Assembly (NCBI GenBank): GCA_024683645.1
Contig: JAIKYA010000084.1
Span: 1-32,894, forward strand
Source: Lachnospiraceae bacterium
Lineage (GTDB): Bacteria > Bacillota > Clostridia > Lachnospirales > Lachnospiraceae
Reading direction: 5' to 3'
Length of the DNA stretch: 32,894 bases
The notes below the pieces were generated by a model. The model made no database searches, had not been told where the DNA came from, and worked only from the letters and a program-made list of their open reading frames with translations. Below are positions 7,423-29,963 of this stretch, piece after piece (within the stretch, counting starts at the first letter, position 1; each line of letters begins with the position of its first letter). A program made the translations under genes and the position numbers.

Positions 7423-8896
7423 GCCGAGGAGTTTTTCACTAAAAAACCAGCTGGCTGCAGCAATCATAGTGATACTCAGTGTCACCATTACTTCTTTATG
7501 GTTCATAAACGTTTTCTTTCTGGAACGTTATTATACCCAGTTTAAAAAAGAGAATCTGCAGGAATTCTATGTACAGATGGTGCAGCATGCACGTGACGGA
7601 CAGCTCGGATCCGATGTGACCAAAGCCGAACTCATGAGGCTCTGCAATATCCACAATCTGGAATTCCTGATCGTCGATTCAAGCGCGAATATACTTTATT
7701 CTTCGCTGAATGATCCCGGACGCATAAACAGACAGCTGAGGGATTTCATTTTTGCGAGGGAAACCGGACGGGGCAAGATACTGGATGAAAACGACGAATA
7801 TACTCTCGAACTTGTCACTGATGATGTGGAATCCCTGAACTATCTGGTGATGTGGGGAAGTCTGGATGCGGAAAATTTTTTTATGCTCAGGGCCAACGTT
7901 GAAAGTATAAAGGACAGCGTGGAGCTGGCAAACCGTTTCCTGCTGAGGGTGGGAATAGCAGCGATAGTGATCGCTTCGGTTGTGACATGGTTTATGATGG
8001 GCAGGATAACAAAACCGATACTGGAACTGGCCCGTATATCGCAGAAGATGGCCGAACTGAATTTCGAAGAAAAATATAAGGGACATTCAAAATCAGAGAT
8101 CGGTGTGCTTGGTGAAAATATAAATCTGCTCTCGGAGACTCTTGAAAAGACCATAGGTGACCTGAAGGGCGCAAATATAGAACTGCAGAAGGATGTGAAA
8201 GCAAGGGAGGAAGCGGATCAGAGAAGACAGGAATTCCTGGGGGCAGTTTCTCACGAACTGAAGACGCCTATCGCACTGATACAGGGATATGCGGAAGGAC
8301 TTAAAGAAGGCATATCAGAGGATAAGGAGAGCAGGGATTATTATTGTGATGTCATTATCGACGAAACGGGAAAGATGAACAATCTGGTGCTGCGTCTCAT
8401 TTCACTTAATCAGGTGGAGAGCGGAAATGAGATCACAAATATGGAACGTTTTGACCTCTGCGCGCTCGTGGCGGGCTGTCTGCAGGCTTATGATCTGAAG
8501 TTTAAAACGGCGGGAATAAAGCTGTTTTATGAAAAGTCGGAAGATGAGATATATGTCTGGGGTGACGAGAGCGGGATTGAGGAAGTGTTTATCAATTATA
8601 TCTCAAATGCCGTAAATCACTGCAGCGGCGCAAAAGAGATCCATGTGAAACTGAACAGGCATGAGAATCGCGTGCGTACGGAAGTGTTCAATACGGGAGA
8701 GCGGATACCCGAGGAGAGTCTTGAGAGGGTATGGGAAAAATTCTACAAAGTAGACAAGGCAAGAACCAGAGAGTACGGCGGCAGCGGTCTGGGGCTGTCC
8801 ATAGTAAAAGCTGTAATGGAGAACATGAACGGAACCTACGGCGTGATCAATTATGATGACGGAGTGGGCTTCTGGTTTGAGATGGAAAGTAAATAA
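7415..8896 (+). CDS. Membrane sensor histidine kinase
   Basis: 493 residues. Two transmembrane segments (about 13-36 and 175-197) frame an extracytoplasmic sensor domain of about 135 residues. A HAMP region follows (about 198-250), then HisKA with phosphoacceptor H280 (SHELKTPIALIQGYAEGL), and a HATPase domain with an N box (NYISNAVNHC) and G boxes (GGSGLGLSIVKAVMENMNG). It autophosphorylates and passes phosphate to the adjacent response regulator. The start ATG lies inside the end of the regulator gene. The sensor domain is not a family I recognise, so the signal is unknown. Confidence 0.95.
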   Translation: MNKPRSFSLKNQLAAAIIVILSVTITSLWFINVFFLERYYTQFKKENLQEFYVQMVQHARDGQLGSDVTKAELMRLCNIHNLEFLIVDSSANILYSSLNDPGRINRQLRDFIFARETGRGKILDENDEYTLELVTDDVESLNYLVMWGSLDAENFFMLRANVESIKDSVELANRFLLRVGIAAIVIASVVTWFMMGRITKPILELARISQKMAELNFEEKYKGHSKSEIGVLGENINLLSETLEKTIGDLKGANIELQKDVKAREEADQRRQEFLGAVSHELKTPIALIQGYAEGLKEGISEDKESRDYYCDVIIDETGKMNNLVLRLISLNQVESGNEITNMERFDLCALVAGCLQAYDLKFKTAGIKLFYEKSEDEIYVWGDESGIEEVFINYISNAVNHCSGAKEIHVKLNRHENRVRTEVFNTGERIPEESLERVWEKFYKVDKARTREYGGSGLGLSIVKAVMENMNGTYGVINYDDGVGFWFEMESK

Positions 8897-8910
8897 TGCC
8901 CCTTGCGGGC

Positions 8911-8939
8911 TTGATATAATCAGGCTGAAATGGTAAAAT
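8911..8939 (+). promoter_or_regulatory. Candidate promoter before the lipoprotein gene
   Basis: TTGATA (8911-8916) and TAAAAT (8934-8939) with a 17-bp spacer and a TGG extension upstream of the -10. Transcription from it would begin almost at the ATG, leaving no room for a leader. An alternative extended -10 (TG-A-TATAAT, 8912-8920) has no clear -35. The choice between them is open. Confidence 0.35.
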
Positions 8940-8946
8940 CGAACAT

Positions 8947-9717
8947 ATGAAAAAGATATGGATAACGGTACTGGCAACGGTATTTACGCTCATGCTCGCA
9001 GCCTGCGGCAACGAGATACCGGAGCTCAGTGATGAAGAAATGTATATGGTTGAAGAGTACGCGGCCAGGCTGCTCCTTAAATATGATGCCAATTACCAGG
9101 GCACCACTCTTTCCGATGAGGAGATAGCGGAGAAAAGAGCAGAAGCTGAACGAAGGGCTGACGTACAGGCCAAGGCTGAAGCCGACCGGGAGGCAAGGGA
9201 GAAGAAAAAGGCTGAGAAGGAAGCGCAGAAGGCTTCGGAGAGCGAGGACGGTGAAGGCGGCGGAGAGAGTACGGCAGCACCGGAGAAGGAGTATGCGGAT
9301 ATAGCTGCTTTCCTGGGACTTGACGGTATCTCGATAGAATATGCCGGCTTTGCTTTCAGCGAGGTGTATCCTATGGACAGCGATATCACCCAGGGTCTGG
9401 CACATGCCCCTTCGGGTAAGAAGTTCATGGTACTTGCATTCAGGATGAGCAATAAATCCGGGGCTGACAAAGAGATCGATATGAATGCGGTCAATCCGTC
9501 GTTTACCGTAGTACTGGGAGCAGGTGTTAAGAAGAGTGCCCAGCCTTCGATGCAAGGTGACAATCTCCTCGGATATACGGGAACACTTGCTGCCGGAGAG
9601 ACTAAGGATGTTCAGCTGTTCATAGAGGTCAATGCGAATACGGAACCGCCCCACACGGCAACCATGAACATGAAGAAAGACGGCGAAAGCGCCGAAGCAA
9701 TGCTGTTTGCGGAGTAA
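8947..9717 (+). CDS. Secreted lipoprotein with a charged coiled coil and a DUF4352/DUF5067-like C-terminal domain
   Basis: 256 residues. A lipoprotein signal peptide is visible: basic MKK, a hydrophobic stretch, then the lipobox LAAC with Cys20. Residues about 55-100 are dominated by Glu, Lys, Ala and Arg and are probably a long coiled coil or helical stalk. The C-terminal 140 residues look like the small beta-sandwich domains common in Firmicute lipoproteins (KFMVLAFRMSNKSG, then TGTLAAGETKDVQLFIEV). No Shine-Dalgarno sequence is evident before the ATG. The gene follows the two-component system, so it may be its output or accessory, which is inference. The precise function is unknown. Confidence 0.8.
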   Translation: MKKIWITVLATVFTLMLAACGNEIPELSDEEMYMVEEYAARLLLKYDANYQGTTLSDEEIAEKRAEAERRADVQAKAEADREAREKKKAEKEAQKASESEDGEGGGESTAAPEKEYADIAAFLGLDGISIEYAGFAFSEVYPMDSDITQGLAHAPSGKKFMVLAFRMSNKSGADKEIDMNAVNPSFTVVLGAGVKKSAQPSMQGDNLLGYTGTLAAGETKDVQLFIEVNANTEPPHTATMNMKKDGESAEAMLFAE

Positions 9718-26873: not shown

Positions 26874-26952
26874 CTAATGGTAGGTTTATGTGAACATCTC
26901 TGTTTTTGCAAAAGATGCGTACACAAAATATACAGGTGATAAGGAGTTTACT

Positions 26953-28242
26953 ATGGGTAAGGATTATTCGCTTAAGGACGCTATGGATATTCTTAACGAA
27001 AGAGTTGATGCCATACTGGCGGTCGACGCGGCTGCGGACAGCTATAAAGTCCTTTCAAAAAAAGGAATTTTTACGGATTTTCTGGAGGACAGCGGAAGTT
27101 ATAAGGAACTCATTGAAAAGCTCTGGTTTCATTTTAATGATACTATGGACAAGATCACCGAAGACTATCAGGTGTTCATCCCTACCTTTGGCAAGTTTAC
27201 CGGTAAATACAGCAGACGCCTTAAACTTGTGATAAATGACATCCCGTATGCCGCCCAGATGAGTATCTATCCGATCGATGAGAATAATTATATCATCCTA
27301 TTGGATGAGCTTGATAACAGCGAGTATATGAAGGACTTTTATACAAGTGAAAAAGTCAACACCATACAGAACACTTATCTGTTTTCCATGTATATCGATC
27401 TTTTCAAAGACAGCACCAGCAGCATAAGTATCACTGAGATATCCGACGAAACCGTGCATTCTTCCGTCAAATACTCCGAATGGAGATATATGATCGTAAA
27501 TATGATCTGGCCGGATGACCAGGCACTGTTCATGGAAAGGACAGATCCGGATTATCTGAAGAAGAACATAGCGCCGGGAAGAACTGCATCTTTTGACTGC
27601 CTGATGCAGAACCTGGAAGGAAAATATATCTGGGTAAAACTGATCTTCTCGCGTTCGGAGACCAACAACAGTGAAGAAGACTTCAGATATGTCTTTATGG
27701 TTCAGGATATACATGAGAATTCTGTTCAGCTGATGTCAACGCTTAAGAAATACGAGGAGCTGGCATCAAAGGATGCGCTTACCGAGGTGTTCAACCACGG
27801 ACGCATTGAGACTGAACTCTACAATGCTGTCGAGATCGCAGCGCGTACGGACAGAGCGGTTTCGATGATGATGTTTGATATAGATTATTTCAAAAATGTA
27901 AACGATACCTACGGGCATGCTGTCGGAGACATGACGCTGAAGCATTTCGCATACATGCTCGGAGAACACTTCAAAAAGCTTAATTCCGTGATCGGAAGAT
28001 GGGGCGGCGAAGAATTCGTGGTGGTATGCTACGATGCGGATGCCGAAAAAGCATTCGGCTATGCGGAGAGCTTCAGGGTGGCTATGAGCAACGAAGAGTT
28101 TAAGGTAGCCGGAAAAGTTACCTGCAGTGCAGGTGTTACCCAGATAAAGGCAGGCGACGACTTCAACAAAGCCTTTGACCGTATGGACAAAGCACTCTAC
28201 ACCGCAAAATCCGCAGGAAGAAACTACGTTAAACTCCTGTAA
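26953..28242 (+). CDS. Diguanylate cyclase (GGDEF domain) with an unassigned N-terminal sensory region
   Basis: 429 residues from the ATG at 26953, which has AAGGAG six bases upstream; a GTG at 26890 in the same frame lacks a ribosome site. The C-terminal 165 residues are a GGDEF domain (DALTEVFNHGRIETEL, MMFDIDYFKNVNDTYGHAVGD, RWGGEEFVVVCYDAD). The active-site signature is GGEEF, so c-di-GMP synthesis is expected. The usual inhibitory RxxD site before it is replaced by KLNS, so product inhibition at that site is probably absent. The N-terminal 260 residues have no membrane segment; about 150-260 look PAS-like (WRYMIVNMIWPDDQALFM, then a beta-rich end VFMVQDIHE). The signal is unknown. Confidence 0.9.
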   Translation: MGKDYSLKDAMDILNERVDAILAVDAAADSYKVLSKKGIFTDFLEDSGSYKELIEKLWFHFNDTMDKITEDYQVFIPTFGKFTGKYSRRLKLVINDIPYAAQMSIYPIDENNYIILLDELDNSEYMKDFYTSEKVNTIQNTYLFSMYIDLFKDSTSSISITEISDETVHSSVKYSEWRYMIVNMIWPDDQALFMERTDPDYLKKNIAPGRTASFDCLMQNLEGKYIWVKLIFSRSETNNSEEDFRYVFMVQDIHENSVQLMSTLKKYEELASKDALTEVFNHGRIETELYNAVEIAARTDRAVSMMMFDIDYFKNVNDTYGHAVGDMTLKHFAYMLGEHFKKLNSVIGRWGGEEFVVVCYDADAEKAFGYAESFRVAMSNEEFKVAGKVTCSAGVTQIKAGDDFNKAFDRMDKALYTAKSAGRNYVKLL

Positions 28243-28282
28243 AAGATTTCAGAATTAATCATTACATCGCCCGAGCGGACTA

Positions 28283-28409
28283 TATGTGTCCGGCCAGAAC
28301 CCGATCCCGCCTGGGCTAAAGCTCGTAGCGGTGCTGAATTCGCTGTTCACCCGCAGGCTTCTGTTAATTAAGCATCTACGGCCTCACATGGTTCTGTACC
28401 GGACACATA
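28283..28409. repeat. Long-range imperfect inverted repeat
   Basis: TATGTGTCCGG (28283-28293) and AGAACC (28296-28301) pair with GGTTCT (28390-28395) and CCGGACACATA (28399-28409), with a 2x3 internal loop. They enclose 88 bases with further short pairings (such as GCGGTG with CACCCGC). No open reading frame of note lies inside. It could be a structured RNA or the remnant of a small palindromic element. Confidence 0.65.
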
Positions 28410-28464
28410 ATGGCTGCACGATAGTACTGCAATGATCCGGCATAAACGGAAAAAAGTAAGCAAA

Positions 28465-28758
28465 GACACGAAGAATCAGCATTATCGGATTTTTCGTGTC
28501 GGCAGTTTTAAAAGGTCGATGAGAAAAAGACACGAATAACGGAATGATTCCGTTTTTTTCGTGTAATTCGATTTTCCGACCTCGTAAGCAAAGGCACGAA
28601 AAGACAGTGTATTTCCTTAATTTCGTGTTATTTGCTTCCGCTGTCTGAAGTGATGCTGACACGAAGAAAATAAGAAGCGTCTGCTATTCGTGTCTGATGG
28701 ATAAAAAGGCTTCGAAATGCGTGACACGAAAACTAATGATTTTCCCGCTTTATCGTGT
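28465..28758. repeat. Array of five GACACGAA...TTCGTGTC hairpin units with a 64-65 bp period
   Basis: Left arms begin at 28465, 28529, 28593, 28658 and 28723 (steps 64, 64, 65, 65). Right arms begin at 28493, 28558, 28622, 28687 and 28752 (steps 65, 64, 65, 65). Units 1 and 4 have full 8-base arms; units 2, 3 and 5 have one or two changes. Loops are 20-22 bases and mostly purine-rich then pyrimidine-rich, with a weak shared core like ATGATTTYCCG; spacers of 28-29 bases differ. Unit 2 has an inner perfect AACGGAAT/ATTCCGTT stem (28538-28554) and an outer AGGTCG/CGACCT pairing (28513-28518 with 28578-28583). Unit 3 has an outer AAGCAAA/TTTGCTT pairing. This is the core of the 655-bp stretch 28243-28897, which has no gene. 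Confidence 0.85.
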
Positions 28759-28775
28759 AAAAAACGTAAACCAAC

Positions 28776-28883
28776 CTCGCGAATGTCGCAAGCGCGGTCT
28801 GCGCTCTGCTTTGGTCGGTGCAGAACTACCGTCCTCCGGACGGTATGAACTGCGCGAGTGTTCAGCAAACAAAGCACTTTGTT
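28776..28883. other. Hairpin cluster before the Old Yellow Enzyme-family gene
   Basis: CTCGCG (28776-28781) can pair with CGCGAG (28853-28858), enclosing AGCGC/GCGCT (28791-28805), CTGC/GCAG (28806-28823) and TACCGTCC/GGACGGTA (28827-28845, loop TCC). AACAAAG/CTTTGTT (28868-28883) follows, ending 14 bp before the ATG at 28898. The final CTTTGTTCTAAAG (28877-28889) matches the end of the 26.8-kb cluster (CTTTGTTCTGAAG, 26827-26839) in 12 of 13 bases. Confidence 0.6.
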
Positions 28884-28897
28884 CTAAAGGGGGTATT

Positions 28898-29963
28898 ATG
28901 AGCAGGGTAGATGAGGCGATAACAATAAACAGGACTGTGGTAAAGAACAGGCTGACAATGGCGCCGACCGTAAAGTTTGATTATGCCGGGCCGGATGGTA
29001 AGGTTACACAGAAGCATATCGAACATTACAGGAAAAGAGCGGAGCATGGCTGCGGACTGATCTGCGTAGAGGCGACTGCGGTGACACCTGGCGGAAGATT
29101 TTGCAAAGAACCATCTGGGACTCTGGGAGGATGCGCAGACAGAGGGCCACAGAGAGGTAGTGGAAGCCTGTCATAAGTTCAGCTGCGTGATGCTGGTGCA
29201 GCTTAATCATACTGGTATAATGGCCAATCCGGACTGCGGACCGGCTATAGGCCCGTCGGCAGTACCCACAAGAGATGAGTCGGTATTGTCGAAGGAGATG
29301 ACTATCGATGAGATACATGATATGCAGAGGTCTTTCCTGCAGGCAGCAATTCGTGCAAAGAAAGCAGGTTATGACGGTGTGCAGCTTCACGGCTGTCATG
29401 GCTATATGATAAACCAGTTCGTATCGGCCAAGACCAATCACAGAACCGATGAGTATGGAGGCAGTGTTGAAAAACGCGCGCGTTTTTGCGCAGAGATAAT
29501 CGGGATGATAAGAAAAGAATGCGGTGATGCCTTTATCATTTCTGTAAGGACTACGGGCATAGAGCCGGATGTGACCACAGCGATAGCTGTTGCAGAAGAG
29601 TATGTAAAAGCAGGCTGTGACTATCTCCAGGTATCGACCGGAATAGAGTGGGAGGATAAGAGTGTAACGGACTGCGGAGAGCATTACAATAAATTCTGCT
29701 CTCTCGGCGTGCGTTTTCACGAACAATTCAGAGGGCGTATTCCCGTATCCTGTGTAAACGGCATCAATACACCGGAAAAAGTAAAGTATCTGATCGAAAA
29801 TGATCTGGTCGATACCGTGGATCTGGCCAGAGCGGTACTTGCAGATCCGGCTTTCTGCGAGGCGGTGTTGAACGGCACGGAATATACAAAGTGTTATGAC
29901 TGTCCACGCTGCCAGTATGGTCCATTTACACCCCATAAATGCCCGGCGGGAAGCGGCGTCTGA
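28898..29963 (+). pseudogene. Old Yellow Enzyme-family NADH:flavin oxidoreductase, disrupted by a one-base frameshift
   Basis: These are FMN-dependent (beta/alpha)8 barrel enoate reductases. The first frame (28898-29176) gives the family N-terminus (VVKNRLTMAPTVKFDYAG, ICVEATAVTPGGRF). After base 29105 the match continues one base later in another frame (KNHLGLWEDAQTEGH, VMLVQLNHTG, HGCHGYMINQFVSAKTNHRTDEYGGS, CYDCPRCQYG) to 29963. Removing one A from AAA at 29105-29107 restores an uninterrupted product of about 354 residues, close to single-domain family length. The start has AAAGGGGG just upstream. The remainder looks intact and unmutated, so the change is recent or a sequencing error. The substrate is unknown. 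Confidence 0.85.

Follow-up and report, generated by a model that had tools for sequence, protein, structure and literature searches.

Regularly spaced inverted repeats in a Lachnospiraceae genome as candidate binding sites of a nuclease-like protein encoded in trans

The window analyzed here is a 32,894-nucleotide stretch of DNA from a Lachnospiraceae bacterium (contig JAIKYA010000084.1, referred to in the following as C60). It carries an array of five inverted repeats that we regard, with high confidence, as candidate docking sites for a protein whose gene lies in another part of the genome. The fuller statement, which includes a mechanism, is also likely in our judgment: the array, which has no gene of its own, would be bound in trans, most likely by a PD-(D/E)XK nuclease-like protein encoded on another contig, C189. 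This reading draws on computed results for the linkage between gene and array, the co-inheritance of arm word and protein, the quantization of unit spacing by helical turns, the conservation of the arms in three gene-less arrays and the dispersal of arrays with the same word.

The window array and its setting

The features of the array and its surroundings are:

26890-28242, + strand: GGDEF-domain gene, on the 5' side of the gap
28243-28897, no strand: intergenic gap with the array, between the GGDEF-domain gene and the NADH:flavin oxidoreductase-like gene
28461-28778, no strand: block with 77–79% identity to the gene-less arrays on contigs C154 and C157 of the same genome (blastn and alignment)
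28466-28499, no strand: unit 1, ACACGAA-N20-TTCGTGT
28530-28564, no strand: unit 2, ACACGAA-N21-TTCGTGT
28594-28628, no strand: unit 3, GCACGAA-N21-TTCGTGT
28659-28693, no strand: unit 4, ACACGAA-N21-TTCGTGT
28724-28758, no strand: unit 5, ACACGAA-N21-ATCGTGT
from 28898, + strand: NADH:flavin oxidoreductase-like gene, on the 3' side of the gap

The initial annotation had recognized five regularly stepped inverted units, and this was borne out: the left arms advance by 64, 64, 65 and 65 bp and the right ends by 65, 64, 65 and 65 bp. The coordinates of the 655-bp noncoding gap around them (28243-28897) were also right. Some details had to be adjusted. The interiors, described as 20–22 nt, are 20, 21, 21, 21 and 21 nt long, and an interior of 22 nt is absent. 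The full 8-base arms, GACACGAA...TTCGTGTC, are present in units 1 and 4 only; the common core is ACACGAA/TTCGTGT, from which unit 3 (GCACGAA) and unit 5 (ATCGTGT) deviate. The additional outer stems of units 2 and 3 do exist in the window, but the paralogous arrays on C154 and C157 lack them, and they are therefore probably incidental.

Upstream of the array, the gap contains a second, unrelated pair of imperfect inverted repeats (28272-28293 and 28399-28420). Its 22-nt arms are 77% complementary and 105 nt apart, and it had no Rfam match. The NADH:flavin oxidoreductase-like gene (28898-29963) is split over two reading frames, covering positions 6–66 and 87–337 of Pfam Oxidored_FMN; this is either an assembly error or a pseudogene.

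Arrays with the same arms

When the 3.1-Mb genome was searched with the pattern ACACGAA-N15–26-TTCGTGT, 22 matches were found, against none for a reversed-pattern control. With the interior fixed at N21 and up to two mismatches allowed, there were 41 matches (19 in the control), all 41 of them in eight arrays on eight contigs, and a two-unit pattern gave 32 matches versus none in the control. Two of the eight arrays have other arms, ACACGCA/TGCGTGT on C145 and a mixture on C181. In the six ACACGAA arrays, the units are spaced 64–65 bp apart, apart from three intervals of 54–55 bp and one of 62 bp. The gene on C180 led to a ninth array of the ACACG type. Seven of the ACACG-type arrays have no partner gene in the fetched flanks. 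The window array and the gene-linked array on C189 share the same arms (ACACGAA/TTCGTGT) and the spacing of 64–65 bp, with C189 also having one interval of 55 bp.

The initial annotation had proposed a search for similar arrays in related genomes, and such arrays were found. The strict ACACGAA pattern matched 5 of 60 genomes (the genome itself, 34 congeners, one of the family and 24 of the order); in this sample, the matches outside the genome itself are single ones or, in G052, belong to another repeat. This last genome, from another family of the order, has an interlaced ACACGAAT/ATTCGTGT repeat on C35, C56, C174, C178, C200 and C216. A pattern scan of the genome collection yielded 12 stretches, of which L032, L034 and L035 were judged to be true arrays and L029 ambiguous, the other eight being chance matches or other repeats. 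Scanning for the array pattern gave 2 positive genomes out of 35 in the genus and 6 out of 397 in the family, including one (G269) judged to be a plain tandem repeat. Two stretches in the viral collection that matched the same pattern were taken as chance.

Arm conservation in gene-less arrays

Paralogy among C60 (the window), C154 and C157 is largely confined to the arrays themselves, with blastn homology stopping near the array edges. In a unit-by-unit alignment of the three, pairwise differences amounted to 2/210 in the arms, 86/310 in the interiors and 124/353 in the spacers. The initial claim that the arms are kept while loops and spacers have diverged thus holds, with a divergence of 1% at arm sites and 28–35% at other sites; the corresponding p-value of 2e-26 is merely indicative, since pairs among three sequences are non-independent. 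This difference indicates that these old, gene-less arrays are selected for their half-sites, that is, for predicted binding. A chance or decayed repeat was rejected based on this arm conservation and on the 22 matches against none in the control.

Within unit 2, the interior (28537-28557; paralogues in L012 and L014) shows a further peculiarity: the reverse complement of the C157 copy resembles C154. The resemblance, seen by eye, is ambiguous, and would suggest an inversion of the 21-nt interior between C157 and C154.

The partner protein

Downstream of the C189 array is an ORF (8865-9677, + strand) encoding a protein of ~270 amino acids with a nuclease-like C-terminus (VRSKSE...YPDF...WEH). 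No Pfam or NCBIfam family was assigned to this protein, and PADLOC profiles of candidate defense proteins match its C-terminus (PDC-S68, E down to 2e-26). Its expression is uncertain because there is no in-frame ATG near the expected start (L077, 1400-1510). By eye, a short stretch around the gene start, in the same interval, looks duplicated. Relatives of the protein are encoded beside arrays in G013 (57% identical) and in L035, from an uncultured Lachnospiraceae (27% identical over part of the length). Among the 30 sources searched, only L015, L064 and L035 had the protein in the fetched flank of an array.

The protein was modeled with AlphaFold2 (pLDDT 92.5) as two long helices separated by three strands, followed by the C-terminal nuclease-like part. 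The best PDB matches found by Foldseek were weak, with E values of 0.02 or more (best 0.023), but most of these entries hold PD-(D/E)XK nucleases, for example Bax1, DrdV and MunI. Ten residues are invariant in 27 sequences, including E161, D192 and E207 (27/27), which we read as a candidate PD-(D/E)XK active site. The position of the usual PD-(D/E)XK lysine is occupied by H208 in 90% or more of the 27 sequences. A Pfam search of 27 members at E 0.1 detected no HUH/Y1 tyrosine transposase domain. The N-terminal part was also modeled alone (pLDDT 93). Foldseek returned no significant structural match for this domain, so the DNA-binding role of the protein is something that we infer; an AP2-like or integrase-arm-like fold found no support in Foldseek.

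At E 1e-20, the protein was found in 25 of the 292 genomes searched in the class, in some cases not at full length; at E 1e-30, it was found in 7 of 398 genomes of the phylum. Five of the seven, in this family, are full length, while the remaining two match only in part, within open frames of 656 and 1218 amino acids. An origin from phages, plasmids or viruses was considered and rejected, as full-length homologs are nearly absent from the respective collections. One phage record matches more than 90% of the protein and two more only the C-terminal part, to which all eight plasmid matches are likewise confined; of the nine matches in viral contigs, eight run from residue 150 on and one from residue 144.

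These properties bear on the idea that the arrays are a filament-like store of an inactive, potentially toxic nuclease, which would be freed by loss or invasion and act in defense or addiction. The relationship of the C-terminal domain to the PADLOC candidate defense proteins would fit such a store, as would the invariant candidate catalytic residues and the maintenance of sites in trans. However, the idea is purely inferential, and the near absence of full-length homologs from the phage, plasmid and viral collections speaks against it; we consider it quite improbable.

Linkage between gene and array

All nine array-positive genomes encode homologs of the protein, three of them having supplied the query. 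By itself, this co-occurrence is weak, because homologs are also encoded by 11 of 23 array-negative congeners tested (of 33 available). Eight of the 11 have an array with different arms near a homolog, as expected from the gene–array model. In G454, the array downstream of the best homolog (E 2e-18) has a word other than that of the ACACG-type array of that genome (L034).

Linkage was then measured on 90 homologous Clostridia genes, comprising 42 of 49 places from the search of congeners and array-positive genomes and 48 of 87 places from the class search; the rest of the 87 were 5 repeats of the congener search, 7 distant homologs (L125-L131) and 27 that were left out. With an exact 5-mer detector that does not assume the word, a palindromic array of at least three units was detected upstream of 58 of the 90 genes, compared to 0/90 shuffled upstream sequences and 2/48 control chunks of 1500 bp. 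Downstream of the genes, where many stretches were shorter, the same detector found arrays in 7/90. A mismatch-tolerant detector, also requiring at least three units, gave 62/90 upstream, 8/90 downstream and 0/90 in the shuffles. Not all of these loci are independent, as related arrays were counted, for example from three species of one genus. The exact detector found no upstream array for 32 of the 90 genes; for some of these, an array is visible by eye or picked up by the mismatch-tolerant detector, two are truncated at a contig end and others seem to be without one. No upstream array was found when the seven distant homologs were scanned. Pseudobutyrivibrio ruminis has nine homologs, and an upstream array was detected for eight of these.

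Of the 58 gene-linked arrays, 49 have a last unit that starts at most 300 bp from the assigned start codon, a position that makes autoregulation likely. Several loci have features of their own. The genes in L098 and L099 contain an in-frame stop, yet the upstream array persists, with 17 units in L099 by the mismatch-tolerant detector and degenerate units, seen by eye, in L098. Arrays are present on both sides of the gene in L095, L106, L115 and L165 (exact detector), as if flanking it. Gene–array cassettes recur next to the same conserved genes across species, namely guaA, lysS, rplM-rpsI, uvrB and a comEC-like gene, all named from a reading of the translations; guaA also appears in the literature on integration hotspots.

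Unit spacing and the RNA reading

Although the exact detector allowed any interval from 44 to 95 bp, all 280 unit intervals fell within 50–55, 60–64, 72–76, 83–86 or 93–94 bp, and none at 56–59, 65–71, 77–82 or 87–92 bp. These classes correspond to 5 to 9 helical turns. A period of 10.48 bp gave the best zero-phase fit (mean vector 0.849 over 76 per-locus class medians). Intervals that depart from the rule are those of 59 bp in L114 and L180, found by the mismatch-tolerant detector; the gene-less C145 array has one interval of 43 bp, near four turns. Whole helical turns are thus a strong rule for unit spacing. Same-face binding on B-DNA requires whole-turn spacing, whereas RNA has no such need, and quantization at the helical repeat therefore indicates a protein on one face of double-stranded DNA rather than an RNA.

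One of the roles initially suggested for the array was a family of small structured RNAs, in which each unit would be an RNA hairpin with an 8-bp stem. The 300-nt array does fold better than shuffled sequences (z −4.57; 1/200 shuffles as good), and the bases that directly flank the two arms on the outside are complementary in 138/187 units, compared to a within-locus shuffle mean of 131 and a maximum of 141. However, the predicted fold joins the arms of different units instead of forming one hairpin per unit, 37/187 units have an A–C mismatch at arm position 7, and a search of the window against Rfam at the gathering score matched two tRNAs only. Arm position 6 is complementary in 155 of the 187 ACACG-type units. 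Shuffling of partners gave means of 65 across all units, 134 within a genome and 149 within a locus (maximum 159), a comparison of low power, given the little variation within loci. These values suggest that the arms match the common half-site of their array, with no clear pairing left at the level of the unit. Covariation of the arms, as raised in the initial annotation, is seen between arrays and genomes and not between the arms of single units. With no Rfam match, no clear arm compensation, outer stems that are not conserved and a 10.5-bp phasing that it does not explain, the RNA reading can be given very little credence.

The arm word follows the protein

Arm words vary widely among the gene-linked arrays, and include GACACG, CACCGC, TTACGG, GGCAAT, TTAGCC and others. 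At 60 loci, proteins from different genomes that are at least 70% identical had the arm word in common in 4/5 pairs, compared to 10/735 pairs of less than 30% identity. For pairs with at least 40% identity, the word was shared in 23/81, where permutation gave a mean of 3.3 and a maximum of 11. That the word might be set by the genome was considered and dismissed, since paralogues within one genome mostly differ, sharing the word in 5/66 pairs. The two ACACG-type proteins in the genome of the window are a case in point: C189 goes with ACACGAA and a period of 64/55, and C180 with ACACGCA and a period of 53. The gene-less arrays of this genome match either the C189 or the C180 type, except for the mixed array on C181.

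Dispersal and neighbors of gene-less arrays

Gene-less arrays are also dispersed in other genomes. G013 has an ACACG-type protein on C84 and at least 11 array loci without the gene, although the true number of arrays is uncertain, as several of these loci lie at contig ends and may be parts of one array. In G018, the word is a different one, AGCATCA/TGATGCT: the single homolog, with its gene-linked array, is on C48, and further AGCATCA arrays with the same 62-bp period are present on C49 (two), C58 and C122. Unit number also varies, as L166 has extra 74-bp units compared to L165 from a close species. We found no gene-less array position common to different genomes in the partial flanks available. 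The genes next to gene-less arrays included none that were clearly orthologous between genomes, only common families, in a comparison limited by the many contigs that end at the arrays. Decayed copies of the gene were rejected as a source of these arrays: at E 1e-3, no remnant was detected in the flanks, which extended to ~4 kb, or less where a contig ended.

The initial annotation had also proposed an expanding palindromic element. This is partly supported: same-word arrays are dispersed within a genome, and unit number, a kind of variation that it had suggested looking for, differs between two close species. A related explanation would be a selfish or domesticated pair like REP/RAYT, in which the nuclease would cut or nick DNA and help to copy the array, the gene-less arrays being non-autonomous copies. 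The dispersal of same-word, mostly same-spacing arrays in the genome of the window, G013 and G018 points in this direction, as do the homology between C60, C154 and C157 that ends near the array edges, the unit numbers of L165 and L166, the lack of a common gene-less position in the partial flanks and the invariant candidate catalytic residues. Against it, copying alone does not explain why arms are conserved unit by unit amid 28–35% divergence. No empty site, target duplication or intermediate came up on unsystematic inspection, and a PD-(D/E)XK-like enzyme differs from the HUH enzyme of RAYTs. We regard such a pair as possible but somewhat doubtful; as a consequence of binding, it can overlay our best explanation.

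Alternatively, the protein could be a transcription regulator, with the arrays as operators that let it control both its own gene and the neighbors of the dispersed arrays. Helical phasing is a typical feature of cooperative operators, and the last units of the gene-linked arrays lie close to the assigned start codons. On the other hand, gene-less arrays sit in codirectional, divergent and convergent gaps alike, with no common theme or function seen among their neighbors, and a regulator leaves the conserved nuclease-like site unexplained. We find this explanation unlikely.

A model for array binding

The explanation that we prefer, a binding array for the protein, corresponds to the third role named in the initial annotation, a multi-site binding region for a dimeric protein. 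As a prediction of binding, it is strongly supported by the helical phasing, the tracking of the protein by the word and the conservation of the arms. That this particular protein would bind the arms, which domain would do so, its dimerization and the consequence of binding are what we infer. In the proposed mechanism, protein dimers would hold the two inverted 7–8-bp half-sites of one unit, and whole-turn spacing would place successive dimers on one face of the DNA, where neighbors could touch and form a regular nucleoprotein array. Such nucleoprotein arrays might also bridge one array to another. At a gene-linked array, the complex would probably autoregulate the promoter of the protein's gene; at dispersed arrays, the same complex would form, and selection would keep the half-sites. 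The consequence that we favor is autoregulation combined with protein-aided dispersal or maintenance of arrays in trans, as in REP/RAYT.

More speculatively, with rather less than even confidence, we propose that these loci may represent an undescribed class of elements in Clostridia. A small DNA-binding PD-(D/E)XK enzyme would co-evolve with its own phased arrays and assemble on them as a one-faced nucleoprotein lattice, building, spreading and maintaining further arrays across the chromosome. Several gene–array pairs, each with a different word, would coexist in one genome, and together they would make up a natural recognition code from protein to word.

An unclassified protein family is now tied to intergenic repeats that are spelled differently for each protein, and this variability may explain why sequence searches miss these repeats. 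That the 10.48-bp quantization holds for many unrelated arm words makes it unusually direct evidence, from genomes, of same-face protein assembly, and the some sixty gene–array loci provide a data set for a protein–DNA recognition code. The central puzzle is the combination of a conserved candidate nuclease site with selected chromosomal sites, and why the host genome is not destroyed.

Comparison with known systems

No description of the arrays or of the protein was found in the open-licence literature, a scope outside which most subscription journals and preprints fall, and our claim that the gene–array family is new is limited to that literature.

CRISPR and TIGR arrays are likewise periodic, with conserved and variable parts. 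Here, however, the conserved parts are 7–8-bp inverted arms and not whole repeats, the spacing is in helical turns, and no cas or tas gene was recognized among the neighbors read. The PADLOC families PDC-S68/S69 and HEAT_CxxC_PDDEXK have a nuclease-like C-terminus related to the one described here, with E values down to 2e-26, but the PDC-S68 models span 1,202–1,273 positions and are matched only near their C-terminal ends, whereas the proteins described here have ~270 amino acids and a different N-terminus.

Cooperative operator and iteron arrays consist of regularly spaced sites on one DNA face beside the gene for the binding protein. The present arrays share this regular, same-face arrangement next to the presumptive binder's gene. 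They differ in their inverted sites with a wide interior, in a spacing of 5 to 9 turns that varies between and within arrays, in the presence of gene-less arrays in trans and in the nuclease-like domain on the protein.

The closest parallel in logic is with REP/REPIN elements and their RAYTs (TnpA_REP; REPtrons), where dispersed palindromes co-evolve with a neighboring enzyme gene, as is also found here. According to one study, recognition of the palindromic elements co-evolves with the associated nuclease or transposase gene, and RAYTs belong to the HUH enzymes and act on REP hairpins in single-stranded form, which they process (PMC8266576); two others describe the persistence of REP/RAYT systems for millions of years (PMC8049555) and REPs as usually exceeding 100 copies per genome (PMC2817692). 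In our case, the protein is PD-(D/E)XK-like and not an HUH/Y1 transposase, the phasing of the arrays fits double-stranded DNA, and window-type arms are separated by 20–21 nt. In the three genomes examined, one word accounts for only ~5 to 12 array loci, and the genome of the window has 41 unit matches. The gene–array pairs resemble REP/RAYT in their logic, but two defining features that could be tested, the HUH enzyme and the high copy number, are absent here.
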